A DNA stretch of 42,839 nt from a virus. The translations under genes were made by a program, and so were the position numbers. Under the pieces are notes generated by a model. It was not told the DNA's origin and made no database searches. It worked only from the letters and a program-made list of their open reading frames with translations. Location of the stretch: IMG/VR virus record IMGVR_UViG_3300012920_000083, positions 1 through 42,839 of that record, one strand, 5' to 3'. This document shows, piece after piece, positions 3,680-26,050 of this stretch (its first letter is position 1; every line of letters starts with the position of its first letter).

Positions 3680-4261
3680 TTAAATTTTGACTATTTCGTA
3701 GTGAGAGTAGGCAAATGATGCCGATGCGGTAAGATATGGCATTGTAGTATCGGTAATGTCAAACTGAATTGCTTCTAGTGAAGTAGGGAATAAGTCCTTA
3801 AATCTTACTTCTATATTGACTTTGTTGTTACTATCTGTAATACTCATTGTTGCATCTGTCATGGTAGGTGCGATAGGTTTCAATGTTGCACTTCTTGCTG
3901 TAGGAAATTCTGCTTGTCTATTAATATAAGCATTATAATCGTCTGTGTCAAGGTCTGCAGTAATTTGTACCATCCAATCTTGCAATGCTTTGAAGTTTGT
4001 CATGTTCTCATCAATCAAGAATGTTATCAGCATATCACCAAATACTAGTGTATCACCAGGCAAAGGTGTATCTTTCATTCTGGTCATCTGCATAGATGAT
4101 GACATAGAAATGTTAGGTATGTTAGCAGTTTGACATGTGAATGCAACACCTTCTAGTCTTTGCATCGTGAATACGAATTGAGAGGGTGTCAAAAAGTTCA
4201 AATTAGATGCCGCTACACTATCGGTCCAATTTGTAATAGTTACGTTTGTATCATACGCCAT
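3680..4261 (-). CDS. 3: gp3-like tail completion / sheath terminator protein
   Basis: The 193-residue protein is tube-related. It has LNFLTPSQFVFTMQRL near the N terminus, then CQTANIPNISM and LPGDTLVFGDMLITFLIDE, a pattern shared by gp19-fold tail tube and tube-terminator proteins. Its place between gp23 and uvsY is where marine T4-like phages keep gene 3, whose product caps the tube and stabilises the sheath at the head-proximal end (T4 gp3 is 176 residues). It is distinct from the true tube protein gp19 at 11294-11863. A gp54-like tube initiator is the main alternative. It has its own late-type promoter and follows the gp23 terminator, and its start codon lies in a hairpin arm. Confidence 0.75.
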   Translation of the reverse strand: MAYDTNVTITNWTDSVAASNLNFLTPSQFVFTMQRLEGVAFTCQTANIPNISMSSSMQMTRMKDTPLPGDTLVFGDMLITFLIDENMTNFKALQDWMVQITADLDTDDYNAYINRQAEFPTARSATLKPIAPTMTDATMSITDSNNKVNIEVRFKDLFPTSLEAIQFDITDTTMPYLTASASFAYSHYEIVKI

Positions 4262-4288
4262 AGTAGTTTCCTATCTTTATACTACTAT
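4260..4288 (-). promoter_or_regulatory. Hairpin sequestering the gp3 start codon
   Basis: ATAGTAGT (minus 4288-4281) pairs exactly with ACTACTAT (4267-4260), leaving a 13-base loop that holds the AGGA ribosome site. The downstream arm includes the AT of the gp3 ATG. The upstream arm overlaps the late promoter and lies before the predicted late start (about 4280), so late transcripts would lack it. Confidence 0.55.
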
Positions 4289-4293
4289 TTATC
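4286..4293 (-). promoter_or_regulatory. Late promoter variant GATAAATA for gp3
   Basis: GATAAATA differs from the T4 late consensus TATAAATA only in the first base. With T4 spacing (element at -13 to -6), transcription would start near 4280 and give a 19-base leader containing AGGA before ATG 4261. It lies just downstream of the gp23 terminator. Confidence 0.65.
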
Positions 4294-4297
4294 CAAT

Positions 4298-4323
4298 AAA
4301 AAAGGGGAGCATTTCTGCTCCCC
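4298..4323 (-). terminator. Intrinsic terminator after gp23
   Basis: On the minus strand GGGGAGC-AGAAAT-GCTCCCC, a perfect 7-bp GC-rich stem with a 6-base loop, is followed by TTTTTT. It lies 32 bases past the gp23 stop and would end the highly expressed capsid transcript before gp3. Confidence 0.9.
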
Positions 4324-4355
4324 TCTAAGTTTTCTCTCTCCCTTTAGGGATTATC

Positions 4356-18115: not shown

Positions 18116-19060
18116 TCATCCTACCATCATGTTTACTGGTAATTCATATCTCAAAGACATCTCTTCTTCAATCTTTTGTATTTCTTCTCTTGCTTCTTGT
18201 AAAATTCTAGGTCCGTCAAGTGTTACACCACCAGGCATTTGTACTCCAGCAAATTTGCTCAAGTTTTGTCCCCATTGTTCTTTAATTAAAGCAGTTAGAT
18301 ATCTTTTTAGAAACATGTCGTTGTACACATCAGCATATGTGCTAGGGTCTAGAATACGATATACTTCGAATACAAGATATTCATCTGCTTGTATATCTTC
18401 ATTCCAGTCCATATCGATGTGAATTCTATCTGAGTGACGATTAAACCTAATAGGTTTTTCTCCAACCAACATCTCTTCAATTAGCGATAAGTGTTTTTGA
18501 ACCATGCCATAATACATAACTGAAGTATTTGCTAAATCAAATATTTCATTCAGTCTCAACTGATAACGAACATCAAACATATCTAAGTTTGTTCTATTAG
18601 AAAATGGGAATACTTGCACAACACCTATAATATTGTCAGTGATAGTAACGTAACCATTTTTAATATCTCCTGCCGAGATTGCTGATACTGTTTGTGATGC
18701 AGAACTTGCGGCACCTGTGATTGTTTCATTTGCTTGAAAATCACCTAGTTCATTAAATACACGAATAGTTGTTGATGTTGGAGCGTCAAAAATCTTTGCA
18801 GTAGCACTAGAAGTGCCACCGGTAATCTTCTCACCAACTGTAAATTGTGAGGAGTTTGAAACTGTTAATGTTGTCGCAGTTACTTTGTGCTTGAGATATG
18901 TTTTCTCTACACCGTCAAAATGATATTCTTGAAAGAACTGTAATGCTTCGTCAGTTCTATCGTCAATCTGGTCAGTTGATACGTTAATATCAATAACACC
19001 TTTACCTAGACGACGGAGAGCATACTCTTGTAACGTGCTTCTGCTTGTTGGGTTCGCCAT
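18116..19060 (-). CDS. 13: Neck protein gp13 with inserted beta domain
   Basis: The 314-residue protein (T4 gp13 is 309) is the head-completion neck protein. Family segments are LQEYALRRLGKGVIDINVS (10-28), EALQFFQEYHFDGVEKTYLK (38-57), NGYVTITDNIIGVVQVFPF (135-153) and the C-terminal FLKRYLTALIKEQWGQNLSK. Between LKHKVT and GDIKNGY, residues about 62-131 are an inserted Thr/Ser-rich double repeat (FTVGEKITGGTSSATAKI; FQANETITGAASSASQTV), like modules in gp8. Its ribosome site lies in the downstream arm of a hairpin overlapping a late promoter. Confidence 0.94.
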   Translation of the reverse strand: MANPTSRSTLQEYALRRLGKGVIDINVSTDQIDDRTDEALQFFQEYHFDGVEKTYLKHKVTATTLTVSNSSQFTVGEKITGGTSSATAKIFDAPTSTTIRVFNELGDFQANETITGAASSASQTVSAISAGDIKNGYVTITDNIIGVVQVFPFSNRTNLDMFDVRYQLRLNEIFDLANTSVMYYGMVQKHLSLIEEMLVGEKPIRFNRHSDRIHIDMDWNEDIQADEYLVFEVYRILDPSTYADVYNDMFLKRYLTALIKEQWGQNLSKFAGVQMPGGVTLDGPRILQEAREEIQKIEEEMSLRYELPVNMMVG

Positions 19061-19105
19061 AAAAAATCTCCAAGGTATCTGTTATTAGTATTTATACCTT
19101 GGAGA
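19061..19105 (-). terminator. Hairpin plus T6 overlapping the gp13 ribosome site and late promoter
   Basis: On the minus strand TCTCCAAGGTAT (19105-19094) pairs perfectly over 12 bp with ATACCTTGGAGA (19078-19067) around a 15-base loop. TTTTTT and then the gp13 ATG (19060) follow. The GGAG ribosome site is in the downstream arm. The structure looks like an intrinsic terminator for transcripts from upstream and would also hide the gp13 ribosome site in readthrough RNA. Transcripts from the internal late promoter lack the upstream arm. Confidence 0.75.
19089..19096 (-). promoter_or_regulatory. Late promoter TATAAATA for gp13
   Basis: A perfect late element spans the top of the upstream hairpin arm and the loop. 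The predicted start near 19083 lies in the loop, giving a 23-base leader with GGAG free. Confidence 0.85.
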
Positions 19106-19138: not shown

Positions 19139-19534
19139 TTATGCTAAAACACACTCCACTTCGCCATGCTGTTGGGTGTTTGCAGTAAGTGCCAATGCTT
19201 TAACATTTTCAAAGGCCGCAGAGTTATCTGTGACTAGCATTCCTTTATATGATGATAATACTAGAGTATCACCTTTTGCTACAGTTCCACGAACTTTTAC
19301 GATGCATCGACCAGACAAAGCAACATATGGATTAGTAGTTCTATCTAGTGAATAGATAACACCGATTGCTTTATTGTCTGTTGAACCTGTTGTAACTTCA
19401 ATCTCAAAATTTCCTGAAGTTGAGGCACGAACAAAAGTACCAACAGATAACAGATTGTTAGGGTCAACAGTAAATCGTTCTGAAAAGTCTGATACTTCTC
19501 TTTGTAGGATTAGTCTTCCGTTTTTAATTGGCAT
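19139..19534 (-). CDS. Small beta-rich structural-type protein
   Basis: The 131-residue protein has no firm name. It begins MPIKNGRLILQREVSDFSER. The segment VALSGRCIVKVRGTVAKGDT (from about residue 72) followed by LVLSSYKGMLV resembles a beta motif seen in phage decoration-like proteins and in fibre-associated domains. There is no signal peptide or membrane segment. It is the last gene of the fibre region, 10 bases after the 292-residue protein. It precedes the gp13 hairpin/terminator, consistent with transcription ending here. Confidence 0.65.
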   Translation of the reverse strand: MPIKNGRLILQREVSDFSERFTVDPNNLLSVGTFVRASTSGNFEIEVTTGSTDNKAIGVIYSLDRTTNPYVALSGRCIVKVRGTVAKGDTLVLSSYKGMLVTDNSAAFENVKALALTANTQQHGEVECVLA

Positions 19535-20456: not shown

Positions 20457-20474
20457 TATTTATATCTATTTATA
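20457..20474 (-). promoter_or_regulatory. Tandem late promoters (two TATAAATA elements)
   Basis: Perfect elements occur at 20474-20467 and 20464-20457 on the minus strand, separated by two bases. The proximal one predicts a start near 20451 and a leader containing TAGGAG before ATG 20423. Both could drive the 292-residue and 131-residue genes. Confidence 0.75.
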
Positions 20475-20485
20475 ACTTAACTCTA

Positions 20486-21055
20486 TTAAGTGACGCCATC
20501 AAAATTAACTGAACCGCTTCTAACTCCTGGGTCATCGGAAAGAGCAATTTCTTTTACCATCATAAATAAATCACTTACAATAAAATCCCTATCGGCAGAA
20601 GATTTTGCTTTTATCTCTAGAGTTTGTCGATTAGTGTTATAAGGTATAAAAGCATGGTGTAATCCTACTGAACTTCTAGAATTTCTCGTATGACTAAGAC
20701 GCCTTGTTGGTGCAGTTCTATTATTTCTTCCTCCAGTATGACCATGATTGTTACCATATGGATGCAACCCATTCAAACTGGTTTGCTCATATTCATTACT
20801 GCCATTTATGAAAAGAGCAACCGAGTATGTATCAGAAGTATTATCTGAATTAGCACTTTCACCTATCGAAAATGAAGCATTAAATTCTATAACAGAAGTT
20901 GGATATTGGGGCGTCATAACTAAAGTTTTGTCACCTATAGTAGCATATGAGTTACTAGATGTGCCGTGAGTCCAATCTCCAGAATTTTCATCAAATTTGT
21001 ACTGAATTAGAAGTGAACCTTCCACGGTTCTTTTTGTTATCTTTTGTAATGCCAT
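20486..21055 (-). CDS. Tandem fibre-like paralogue 5
   Basis: The 189-residue protein is the last of five related genes in transcription order. Shared family features are MALQKITKRTVEGSLLIQYK at the start, MTPQYPTSVIEF (48-59), LFINGSNEY (81-89), and a His-rich tip segment HGHTGGRNNRTAPTRR (104-119). The motif GLHHAFIPYNTN (131-142) and the closing VKEIALSDD follow. Family layout resembles small beta-sandwich domains common in phage tail fibres, so receptor-binding or fibre-tip function is inferred. It is closest to paralogue 4 next to it. Confidence 0.8.
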   Translation of the reverse strand: MALQKITKRTVEGSLLIQYKFDENSGDWTHGTSSNSYATIGDKTLVMTPQYPTSVIEFNASFSIGESANSDNTSDTYSVALFINGSNEYEQTSLNGLHPYGNNHGHTGGRNNRTAPTRRLSHTRNSRSSVGLHHAFIPYNTNRQTLEIKAKSSADRDFIVSDLFMMVKEIALSDDPGVRSGSVNFDGVT

Positions 21056-21082
21056 ACTATGATTCCGTGTAGGTTATATAAT

Positions 21083-21625
21083 TTACTGTCCGCCAGATGA
21101 TGCTAATCCAATAGAAATTTCCTTCGCTATAAAGTAAAAATCTCTGACCCGAATATTTCTTGTTCCGCTATTTTTTACACGAATATCCATATCTAGTTGA
21201 TTTGTAGTTGCTGGTGTGAAAGCATGAGTTAATCCTATTGCCAAAGATGTATTAGTAACATGAGCATGTCTTCTAGTAGGAGCAGTTCTATTATTTCTTC
21301 CTCCGGTGTGACCGTGGGCATTACCATATGGATTTACCATTCCTATATTAGTTTCTTCATATTCATTATTACCATTTACAAAAAGCGCAACTGAGTATGT
21401 ATCAGAAAGGTTCTGCGAATTACTAATATCTCTTACTGTCATACTTGCTGAGTTTTCAATGATTGAATCCGCATATTGTGGGGTCATCGTAATATTCTTA
21501 TTATTAACTTCCGTATATGTGGTTTGTGATGCCGTTATATCAAAATCACTAGTGTTTTCATTATATTTGAACTGAACTAATAGTGATCCATGAACAATAT
21601 GTTTCGTTACTCTGGTTAGTGCCAT
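21083..21625 (-). CDS. Tandem fibre-like paralogue 4
   Basis: The 180-residue protein shares nearly the whole plan of paralogue 5: MALTRVTKHIVHGSLLVQFK, NITMTPQYADSIIE, ALFVNGNNEYEE, HGHTGGRNNRTAPTRR (104-119) and GLTHAFTPATTNQ (131-143), then AKEIS. The segment around the GGRNNRTAPTRR motif is also highly similar at DNA level to paralogue 5, indicating recent duplication or recombination. It has an AGGGG ribosome site. No enzyme motif is present. Confidence 0.8.
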   Translation of the reverse strand: MALTRVTKHIVHGSLLVQFKYNENTSDFDITASQTTYTEVNNKNITMTPQYADSIIENSASMTVRDISNSQNLSDTYSVALFVNGNNEYEETNIGMVNPYGNAHGHTGGRNNRTAPTRRHAHVTNTSLAIGLTHAFTPATTNQLDMDIRVKNSGTRNIRVRDFYFIAKEISIGLASSGGQ

Positions 21626-21637
21626 TTTTATTCCCCT

Positions 21638-22168
21638 TTATGTCAAGTTATAGTGGTCGCCAGCAATTTCACTGATAGTTAAAAATCCTTCAGCAAAAGT
21701 TATTGATGGACCGTCTCCGTCAACTGCAACTTGACACTGCACTATCTGTGCATTAGTTGTTCCCGGCGCATGAATGTGGTTCATATAAATCGCCGAACCA
21801 AACCCATAATGTCTCCAGTTCTGTCTACCATTCGCCTCACCATGCTGTTGGTTTTGATGAGTATGATTACCGCTTCTATTTGGGTTGTTACCAATAATAC
21901 CTCTTAAAGTGTATTCTGTATTACCATTCACTACAAATCGTGCTTGTCCAGCATGAAATCCAGTGGAGATACCGCTAGAAGTTTGATATGCTGTTCCTGT
22001 AGTAACTAACTCTAGATGACTATCCGAATATTGAGGCGTAAGTGTTGCACTAGTACCCCAATCTGCAAAAGTAGAACTGGTCTGACTTTTATCAGTTAAA
22101 TCCTTACCATAGTGTGCTACAAGAACTGATCCAAACACAATATGTTTTGTTACTTTTGTTAATGCCAT
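21638..22168 (-). CDS. Tandem fibre-like paralogue 3
   Basis: The 176-residue protein has the family start MALTKVTKHIVFGSVLVAHY, LTPQYSDSHLEL (43-54), FVVNGNTEYTLR, and the His-rich segment HTHQNQQHGEANGRQNWR (102-119). It then has YMNHIHAPGTTN (128-139) and SEIAGDH near the end. Two His-x-His pairs (102-104 and 131-133) could bind metal. It is closest to paralogue 2, with which it shares a nearly identical DNA segment. Confidence 0.8.
   Translation of the reverse strand: MALTKVTKHIVFGSVLVAHYGKDLTDKSQTSSTFADWGTSATLTPQYSDSHLELVTTGTAYQTSSGISTGFHAGQARFVVNGNTEYTLRGIIGNNPNRSGNHTHQNQQHGEANGRQNWRHYGFGSAIYMNHIHAPGTTNAQIVQCQVAVDGDGPSITFAEGFLTISEIAGDHYNLT
21812..21878. repeat. Near-identical segment shared with paralogue 2 (copy in paralogue 3)
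   Basis: This coding stretch for the GRQNWR / HTHQNQQHGE region is almost identical in bases to 22362-22428. Both contain CTCCAGTTCTGTCTACCATT and CACCATGCTGTTGGTTTTG. It is far more alike than flanking parts of the genes, suggesting recent duplication or gene conversion. Confidence 0.75.
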
Positions 22169-22190
22169 TTTATAAACCCTTTATTTCTAT

Positions 22191-22715
22191 TTATGTAAGA
22201 TTGTGTCCTAGTCCTGACAATTCTGTTATTGTAGCAAATCCTTCTTCACAATTAATAGATAGACTATTTGACGTTGCTACTTCACACCTAAATGTTTGTT
22301 CATTTCTTGTTCCTGGTGTGTGTAAGTGGTTCATGTATAATGTTGTTCCTCTATTAAATATTCTCCAGTTCTGTCTACCATTACTCTCACCATGCTGTTG
22401 GTTTTGATGAGAATGACTACCGCTTCTTGACTGGTTAAATCCATTTATATTATTCATTATATATTCTTCAAGTCCATTTACCATCAATCTTGCTTTACCA
22501 TATGCCGCTCCAGCAGGAGCGTTAGTATCAATTAAGATAGTTCCAGTAAGAATATATTCAAACACACTATCTTCATATTGTGGAGTAATTGAAATGTCAC
22601 CGCCCCATGATGTAAAAGTAGAACTTGTTGTGGACGTATCCACAAGGTCTTTACCGTAGTGAGCAACTAAGACTGATCCAAATACCACCGACTTCTTTAT
22701 TTTTTTCAACGCCAT
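22191..22715 (-). CDS. Tandem fibre-like paralogue 2
   Basis: The 174-residue protein has MALKKIKKSVVFGSVLVAHY, ITPQYEDSVFEY (43-54), LMVNGLEEY, HSHQNQQHGESNGRQNWR (101-118), YMNHLHTPGTRN and a closing ITELSGLGHNLT. It differs from paralogue 3 mainly in the middle strands and loops, the pattern expected of surface-exposed fibre parts. The ribosome site is weak, so translation may depend on coupling with the gene upstream. Confidence 0.8.
   Translation of the reverse strand: MALKKIKKSVVFGSVLVAHYGKDLVDTSTTSSTFTSWGGDISITPQYEDSVFEYILTGTILIDTNAPAGAAYGKARLMVNGLEEYIMNNINGFNQSRSGSHSHQNQQHGESNGRQNWRIFNRGTTLYMNHLHTPGTRNEQTFRCEVATSNSLSINCEEGFATITELSGLGHNLT
22362..22428. repeat. Near-identical segment shared with paralogue 3 (copy in paralogue 2)
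   Basis: This is the partner of 21812-21878, encoding the same His-rich tip segment with only a few base differences. Confidence 0.75.
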
Positions 22716-22728
22716 TCATCATATCTCA

Positions 22729-23256
22729 TTAGTTTACATAAGCATTACCTGGTGTACCAAGTGTGATACCACCGGCAATTTCTTTAACCATCAAAAATCC
22801 TTGTCTACATTCACAGTTACCTCCAGCATTACCATTGGTTCTAGCAACTTGAACAGTAGCAGTTTGTAAGTTTGTAGTACCTGGTAGATGTCTATGATAC
22901 ATGTTTACAGATTTACCTTCTCTACGACCAGCGGCACTACTATAAGAATAATCGAAATTTGAAACAGAGGCGGCATCATTCAAAGAATACTCTGTTGTTC
23001 CATTAATATCTAAAAACATATTAATTCGAGGACTTTCATAAAGACCGTTTTGTGGTGCAGAACTATCTGAAGCATGGTCTATTTGACCACTCATACGAAC
23101 TTCCATGATTGAATCCGAATATTCTGGTGTCATAGTAATGTTGTCCCAGTCTGCTCCTGATGTGCTTGTTGTGTCTAAGTTCGCCATATCTTTATAACGA
23201 ACTTGAACGATAGTCGCTCCATGTACAATATGTTTTGTTAATTTTGTTAATGCCAT
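22729..23256 (-). CDS. Tandem fibre-like paralogue 1
   Basis: The 175-residue protein is the first and most divergent member. It keeps MALTKLTKHIVHGATIVQVR, NITMTPEYSDSIMEVR (39-54), INGTTEYSL and YHRHLPGTTNLQTATVQVAR (120-139), and ends with LMVKEIAGG. It lacks the GGRNNR or GRQNWR tip of the others and has SYSSAAGRREGKSVN instead. An AGG-rich site precedes the ATG, which lies 12 bases after the 799-residue fibre gene. Confidence 0.8.
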   Translation of the reverse strand: MALTKLTKHIVHGATIVQVRYKDMANLDTTSTSGADWDNITMTPEYSDSIMEVRMSGQIDHASDSSAPQNGLYESPRINMFLDINGTTEYSLNDAASVSNFDYSYSSAAGRREGKSVNMYHRHLPGTTNLQTATVQVARTNGNAGGNCECRQGFLMVKEIAGGITLGTPGNAYVN

Positions 23257-25668: not shown

Positions 25669-25683
25669 CTGTTATCTCTCTCT

Positions 25684-26019
25684 TTACGGTGTAAATTCTA
25701 GTACATTGACAACAACATCCAAAGAACTTGCTCTTGATGCTTTTACTTTCACAATTTCTCCATCGTTCAAATTAATTGGTCGCTCAAGTAGGGCGCCCAA
25801 GTTTGCTTGAACAGGATATAAGTATGCTACATGAAATTCATTACCTGCACCATCATCAATAACTATATTCACATACAAATCTTCAAGGTTGTATGTGTTT
25901 GTAATATAAATCGAATGAATAACTGCGTACTTACCACTCGGTACAGTGTACAATGTACTTCCTGACCCTGTGGAAGATGCTCCACTCACTTTTGTATTTT
26001 TGAATATACCTGTTGCCAT
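25684..26019 (-). CDS. Small beta-rich virion-type protein, paralogue of 27743-28078
   Basis: The 111-residue protein has the layout LYTVPSGKYAVIHSIYITNT (24-43), a middle YVNIVIDDG, and INLNDGEIVKVKASRASSLD near the end, closing with VNVLEFTP. The same order is seen in the 111-residue protein at 27743-28078. Such small proteins are common beside tail fibres of marine T4-like phages. The exact role is unknown. A consensus late promoter precedes it. Confidence 0.7.
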   Translation of the reverse strand: MATGIFKNTKVSGASSTGSGSTLYTVPSGKYAVIHSIYITNTYNLEDLYVNIVIDDGAGNEFHVAYLYPVQANLGALLERPINLNDGEIVKVKASRASSLDVVVNVLEFTP

Positions 26020-26042
26020 TTCTAGTTCCTATCTCTTATTCA

Positions 26043-26050
26043 TATTTATA
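26043..26050 (-). promoter_or_regulatory. Late promoter TATAAATA for the fibre genes
   Basis: A perfect late element lies 23 bases before ATG 26019, with TAGGAA as ribosome site in the predicted leader. It could drive the 111-residue gene, the 799-residue fibre and the paralogue array. Confidence 0.8.

Follow-up and report, generated by a model that had tools for sequence, protein, structure and literature searches.

Gene 13 of this T4-like phage fragment is probably expressed from its own late promoter, which is built into a composite boundary between two late units that combines a stop signal, a start signal and a ribosome lock in about 45 bases. The structure, conservation, energy difference and terminator signature of the element were computed from the 42,839-base stretch analyzed here (the window) and its relatives, and from these we infer the start site, termination and the effect on translation. 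In the proposed mechanism, RNA from the upstream fibre-type genes would fold a 12-bp hairpin on reaching the T6 tract, and part of it would terminate. RNA that reads through would hold the gene 13 GGAG in the stem, making gp13 untranslatable. Polymerase with the phage late sigma factor would start at TATAAATA, which spans the 5' arm and the loop, and the resulting late RNA from about position 19083 would lack the 5' arm and leave the ribosome site free within a 23-nt leader. The gene 13 product would thus come only from its own late promoter.

Layout and genomic setting of the element

Upstream of gene 13 the minus strand reads TCTCCAAGG[TATAAATA]CTAATAACAGATACCTTGGAGA-TTTTTT-ATG or, over a longer stretch, ...TAACAATAAAAAAAGTCATAATTCTAAACTCTATTT-TCTCCAAGGTAT-AAATACTAATAACAG-ATACCTTGGAGA-TTTTTT-ATGGCG (Table 1). 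The initial annotation had described a perfect 12-bp inverted repeat followed by T6 and the ATG, with the GGAG in the downstream arm, and all of its coordinates proved exact on direct reading. All 12 stem pairs (19094-19105 with 19067-19078) are Watson-Crick, and the GGAG lies 7 nt from the gene 13 ATG. The same annotation had placed TATAAATA across the upstream arm, with a predicted start at about 19083 in the loop. The promoter position was also confirmed, with TATAAATA (19096-19089) overlapping the 5' arm by 3 nt, and the same start is predicted when TATAAATA is placed at -13 to -6 relative to +1 (PMC1524935). The hairpin is the sole perfect inverted repeat of at least 10 bp with a loop of at most 20 in the window. 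Repeats of at least 12 bp are expected by chance 0.05 times (40 dinucleotide shuffles), and the shuffles gave none with at least 5 G/C. As RNA the hairpin folds at -17.1 kcal/mol (z -5.3), and none of 200 shuffles was as good.

Table 1. Coordinates of the gene 13 element and associated features in the window
Feature	Position	Strand	Remark
5' arm of 12-bp stem, TCTCCAAGGTAT	19094..19105	-	direct read; unchanged or compensated among relatives
T4-type late promoter element TATAAATA, part 5' arm and part loop	19089..19096	-	direct read
15-nt loop	19079..19093	-	length and sequence vary in relatives, promoter part excepted
Predicted late transcription start (+1), inside loop	19083	-	from TATAAATA at -13 to -6 (PMC1524935)
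3' arm, ATACCTTGGAGA	19067..19078	-	direct read; kept in relatives
Shine-Dalgarno (SD) GGAG within 3' arm	19068..19071	-	direct read
T6 tract abutting stem, terminator tail and SD-ATG spacer in one	19061..19066	-	
Gene 13 (neck protein, head-tail adaptor Ad2), 314 aa	18116..19060	-	ATG 19060-19058
Upstream 131-aa ORF, no known family	19139..19534	-	stop 33 nt before stem
Two close late promoters, expected source of RNA reading through to the hairpin	20457..20474	-	
Classical intrinsic terminator GGGGAGCAGAAATGCTCCCC-TTTTTT, after major capsid gene	4261-4325 (4303)	-	d 57.6

The 314-aa ORF belongs to the T4 gp13 family (PHROG 211, head-tail adaptor Ad2, E 9.5e-41) and is followed by genes for a head-closure protein and a tail sheath stabilizer, assigned as genes 14 and 15 from their families and the gene order of T4. 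Gene 14 starts only 4 nt past gene 13, so the lock could possibly lower coupled downstream translation too. An internal stretch of gp13 (residues ~60-140) matches tail-fibre profiles (PHROG 9851 and 693), as if a fibre-like domain had been inserted in the neck protein. Among named phages, the closest gp13 proteins (43-46% identity) are those of Pelagibacter phages Mosig and HTVC008M and of Methylophilales phage Melnitz, so the window is taken to be a fragment of a T4-like phage, probably marine, without a close cultured relative. Mosig carries a weaker form of the element (L101). A megablast search of the window against phage records returned no relative, and short blastn gave weak matches alone, four of them in S-CAM8 fibre genes.

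The upstream 131-aa ORF stops 33 nt short of the stem, so ribosomes translating it should not reach the hairpin and would leave it folded and exposed. TATAAATA occurs 10 times in the window, each time on the coding strand (shuffle mean 3.7), and the nearest promoters upstream of the hairpin (20457-20474 and 26043-26050) are both of the late type. The element would therefore insulate one late unit from another and not only silence early RNA. In addition, the element may block early read-through in the manner of T4 e, with no early promoter identified in the window. The initial annotation had proposed that incoming RNA is either terminated or blocked; the predicted SD lock and the terminator signature support this, with the qualification that the upstream promoters are late, so that the element separates late units.

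Several other features of the upstream region were observed. The two late promoter elements at 20457-20474 lie 10 nt apart (TATAAATAGATATAAATA) before a single gene, an arrangement kept in a close relative. Downstream of the late promoter at 26050, five paralogous ORFs (174-189 aa) lie in tandem at positions 20486-23256 and resemble one another at the N-terminus (MAL..(I/V/L)TK..V.GS). These probably encode expanded fibre-type proteins; the one paralogue of the five tested (20486-21055) had no PHROG match. An ORF starting MATGIFKNTKVSGASSTGSG (~25669-26030, minus strand) begins right after the same promoter and is slightly below the length cut-off of the ORF list.

Ribosome site accessibility and terminator signature

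The strength of the lock was computed as the free-energy cost of opening the SD, once for RNA with the 5' arm and once for RNA starting 13 nt after the first T of TATAAATA. The initial annotation had suggested folding the leader with and without the upstream arm, and this computation locks the SD in read-through RNA and frees it in late-started RNA, with a predicted GGAG opening cost of 13.1 versus 1.1 kcal/mol. The late consensus has its predicted start (19083) downstream of the 5' arm, and in the model the SD sits in a stable helix only in RNA started upstream. The same computation gave 11.0 versus 0.8 kcal/mol for T4 I-TevI, 12.8 versus 2.8 for T4 e and 6.2 versus 1.0 for T4 49, and found no lock for T4 soc in the short-range model (0.7 versus 0.2). 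The predicted lock of the window is therefore close to the proven e and I-TevI locks computed alike. For the other late genes of the window the opening cost changed by -1.9 to +2.7.

A second comparison asked how strongly the lost 5' segment pairs with the ribosome site at 89 distinct late promoters of the window, T4 and marine relatives; the way this set was collected enriched it for gp13. The pairing was significant (p <=.01) in eight, and in none when an upstream control segment was used. The strongest pairing belonged to the window clade (z -6.7) and its sister variant L020 (z -7.8). The idea that all late promoters are such locks was rejected, as the set shows no excess (Wilcoxon p 0.46) and the effect forms a distinct tail. 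In a 126-kb relative with 99% gp13 identity, the gp13 promoter alone has lock pairing (z -7.9), all others being at -1.0 or weaker.

Terminators were scored according to d'Aubenton-Carafa with loops up to 20. Two clear sites were found in the window, at 4303 and at the gene 13 hairpin, both intergenic and on the coding strand. The gene 13 hairpin combines a stable stem and an immediate T tract with a score of 18.7, above the maximum of 20 shuffles (14.8), and other scored variants of its clade (clade A) reached 19.8 to 27.5. A simple terminator scan had missed it, being limited to loops of up to 8 nt. A T6 run no more than 14 nt from the ATG was present at 15 of 779 distinct SD-bearing starts, all of them gp13 starts in which the hairpin ends at, or one base before, the T run; it was present at none of the other 764. 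This test makes it unlikely that the T run is a mere spacer. The 15 starts span four gp13 lineages (the window clade, L025/L195, L247 and L180), and in two of these the terminator score is negative (L247, -12.1; L180, -10.6). The loop of the window hairpin, at 15 nt, is not the short loop of an intrinsic terminator; T4 terminators typically have loops of 4 nt (PMC2988022), and in several relatives an inner helix closes the loop to 6-8 nt. Given this loop, we regard the element as terminator-like and not as a proven terminator, its termination half being less certain than the lock and of uncertain strength. The earlier proposal that it also acts as a terminator thus gains from a signature above all shuffles and loses from a loop that is long for an intrinsic terminator.

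The terminator at 4303 is directly followed by GATAAATA, likely a variant late promoter for the next, tail-tube-like gene, and at position 100503 of the relative a T tract is directly followed by TATAAATA. With terminators placed directly before late promoters in this way, the gp13 element looks like such a tandem collapsed into one hairpin. The same sites would fit a terminator only, which closes the fibre operon and encloses the following promoter and ribosome site merely through dense packing, with sequestration as an effectless by-product. We consider this improbable, since unrelated hairpins of the same geometry recur before gp13 without a T tract, the modelled lock strength equals that of proven T4 locks, and a lock of 12 kcal should block translation even as a by-product.

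Conservation and recurrence before gp13

Searching with gp13 and scanning viral contigs for a DNA pattern gave 45 loci; these include the window itself, and many are records that overlap on a shared contig. The pattern scan found 20 contigs, and every one inspected has the element before gp13. The 45 loci show ten distinct forms of the hairpin, all in one gp13 clade (support 99). Within this clade of one origin, all 12 distinct upstream sequences keep the hairpin, the promoter and T6 or longer; both arms, TATAAATACT and at least six T are kept, and the remaining loop differs in sequence and length. TATAAATACT is invariant in all eight distinct aligned variants though mostly in the unpaired loop, which indicates separate selection on the promoter.

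The structure is likewise kept in the eight aligned variants, with 97.9% of stem cells paired compared to 18-48% in slid registers. The initial annotation had asked whether relatives carry paired base changes; stem and promoter turned out to be conserved, and one compensatory change was found, the outer pair being U-A in most variants and A-U in L020. L004 has U-G in place of C-G, and the inner stem of L020 is longer on both sides (GGTTATA/TATAACC), which a fixed-column count scores as broken. This single double change was matched by 54 of 500 column shuffles and is weak on its own; as the stem barely varies, covariation is thin and we make no strong claim from it. Such strong conservation of both arms in clade A might also be expected of a DNA-level palindrome, acting as a protein-binding site or cruciform and unrelated to RNA. 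Either this or a chance repeat is very improbable, given the chance expectation of 0.05, the strand asymmetry of the element (T6, SD, ATG and promoter are all on one strand), a loop that ranges from 15 to about 25 nt in relatives, and unrelated arms in other lineages that still hold the SD.

Outside the window clade, hairpins with unrelated arms and the same layout precede gp13 in L078 (arms AACAGTCCTTATAA/TTATAGGGACTGTT) and its kin L109 and L202, in L187 (18 pairs), in L190-192, and in L195 and L247. On the gp13 tree (FastTree, midpoint root) at least four state changes are needed for the hairpin and at least three for the T tract, the latter count being a minimum because the L180 form is an unlabelled row. 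L195 and L190-192 fall in sister groups that both have the hairpin, with the T tract in just one. Counting against the proposed composite, most gp13 genes of the wider set (86 of 162) have no late promoter in the 60 nt before them. That unrelated hairpins recur with one geometry before gp13 points to selection against production of gp13 from fibre-operon RNA. In T4, a stable GGGGCC-GCAA-GGCCCC hairpin lies right before the gene 13 SD at the wac-13 junction (L104 33593-33625), without a late promoter or T tract.

The T tract is missing from the hairpins of L078/L109/L202, L190-192 and L187. The lock thus appears to be the more general feature of the two, and termination is not essential to the design. 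This distribution raises the alternative of a ribosome lock only, in which a hairpin of the T4 e type silences gene 13 on read-through RNA and the T tract is a U-rich spacer, or adds pairing with A residues of the promoter, and causes no termination. The long loop would fit, as would the sister lineages B (with T tract) and E (without), which retain the hairpin with a C-G to U-A change, and the promoter's AAATA can pair with some of the T run in L195 and L247. The window T run, however, has no A-rich partner, T6 spacers are confined to the gp13 starts noted above, and the terminator score exceeds all shuffles and is the second in the window, making a lock without termination unlikely, if less so than the alternatives above. 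The composite of lock, promoter and terminator thus remains our preferred reading for the window. A broader version, in which such a boundary evolved repeatedly ahead of the neck operon (from gp13 on) in marine T4-like phages, so that fibre read-through never makes gp13 and only its own late promoter determines the dosage of neck protein, is tentative, with chances slightly short of even.

Comparison with known phage systems

Removal of the 5' strand of an inhibitory hairpin by a late promoter has been described for T4 e and I-TevI, with soc and 49 named as further sequestered starts (PMC3014915), and the same hairpin/late-promoter arrangement has been described for several homing endonuclease genes (PMC2988022). 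The precedents cited in the initial annotation, T4 e and 49, are therefore both real (PMC3014915). The promoter-plus-lock part is thus a known T4 device; its fusion with a terminator, the structural gene that it serves and its recurrence in several lineages look new in the open literature searched. In the open-licence papers searched we found no description of a lock that is also a terminator or that acts on gene 13, and no precedent for a terminator that contains both a promoter and a ribosome site. If the proposal is correct, uncultured T4-like phages insulate structural operons from one another with a device known from T4 lysis, nuclease and homing genes, and control of termination, initiation and translation is compressed into 45 bases.

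A divergent-gene explanation, which accounts for some strong T4 cases (26/51 and 4/53) by complementary SDs, was rejected for the window because no plus-strand gene starts next to 19105. In those T4 late genes (26/51, L106 6429-6480; 4/53, L104 17338-17386) the SDs are mutually complementary around back-to-back late promoters, and RNA entering from upstream could possibly lock the ribosome site as a general by-product of divergent late promoters.

T4 e is the closest counterpart, with TATAAATA in the DNA of the 5' strand, the SD in the 3' strand, late RNA without the 5' strand and a similar opening cost (PMC3014915), but its stem is not followed by a T tract, the RNA that it blocks is the early RNA of a lysis gene, and its sequence is unrelated. 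In T4 I-TevI (td intron), I-TevII, I-TevIII, segB and Aeh1 mobE, a hairpin also locks the ribosome site in upstream-started RNA and a late promoter frees it (PMC2988022, PMC3014915); these are homing endonuclease and not structural genes, and the I-TevI stem has no T tract. T4 49 and soc share inhibitory structures at translation starts (PMC3014915), with a weaker lock (none for soc in the short-range model) and no T tract. The tandem of terminator and late promoter in T4-like phages (window 4303; relative 100503; T4 upstream of genes 9 and 36) serves the same two functions at unit boundaries, but there the two signals lie side by side, whereas before gene 13 of the window they occupy one hairpin that is shared with the ribosome site.
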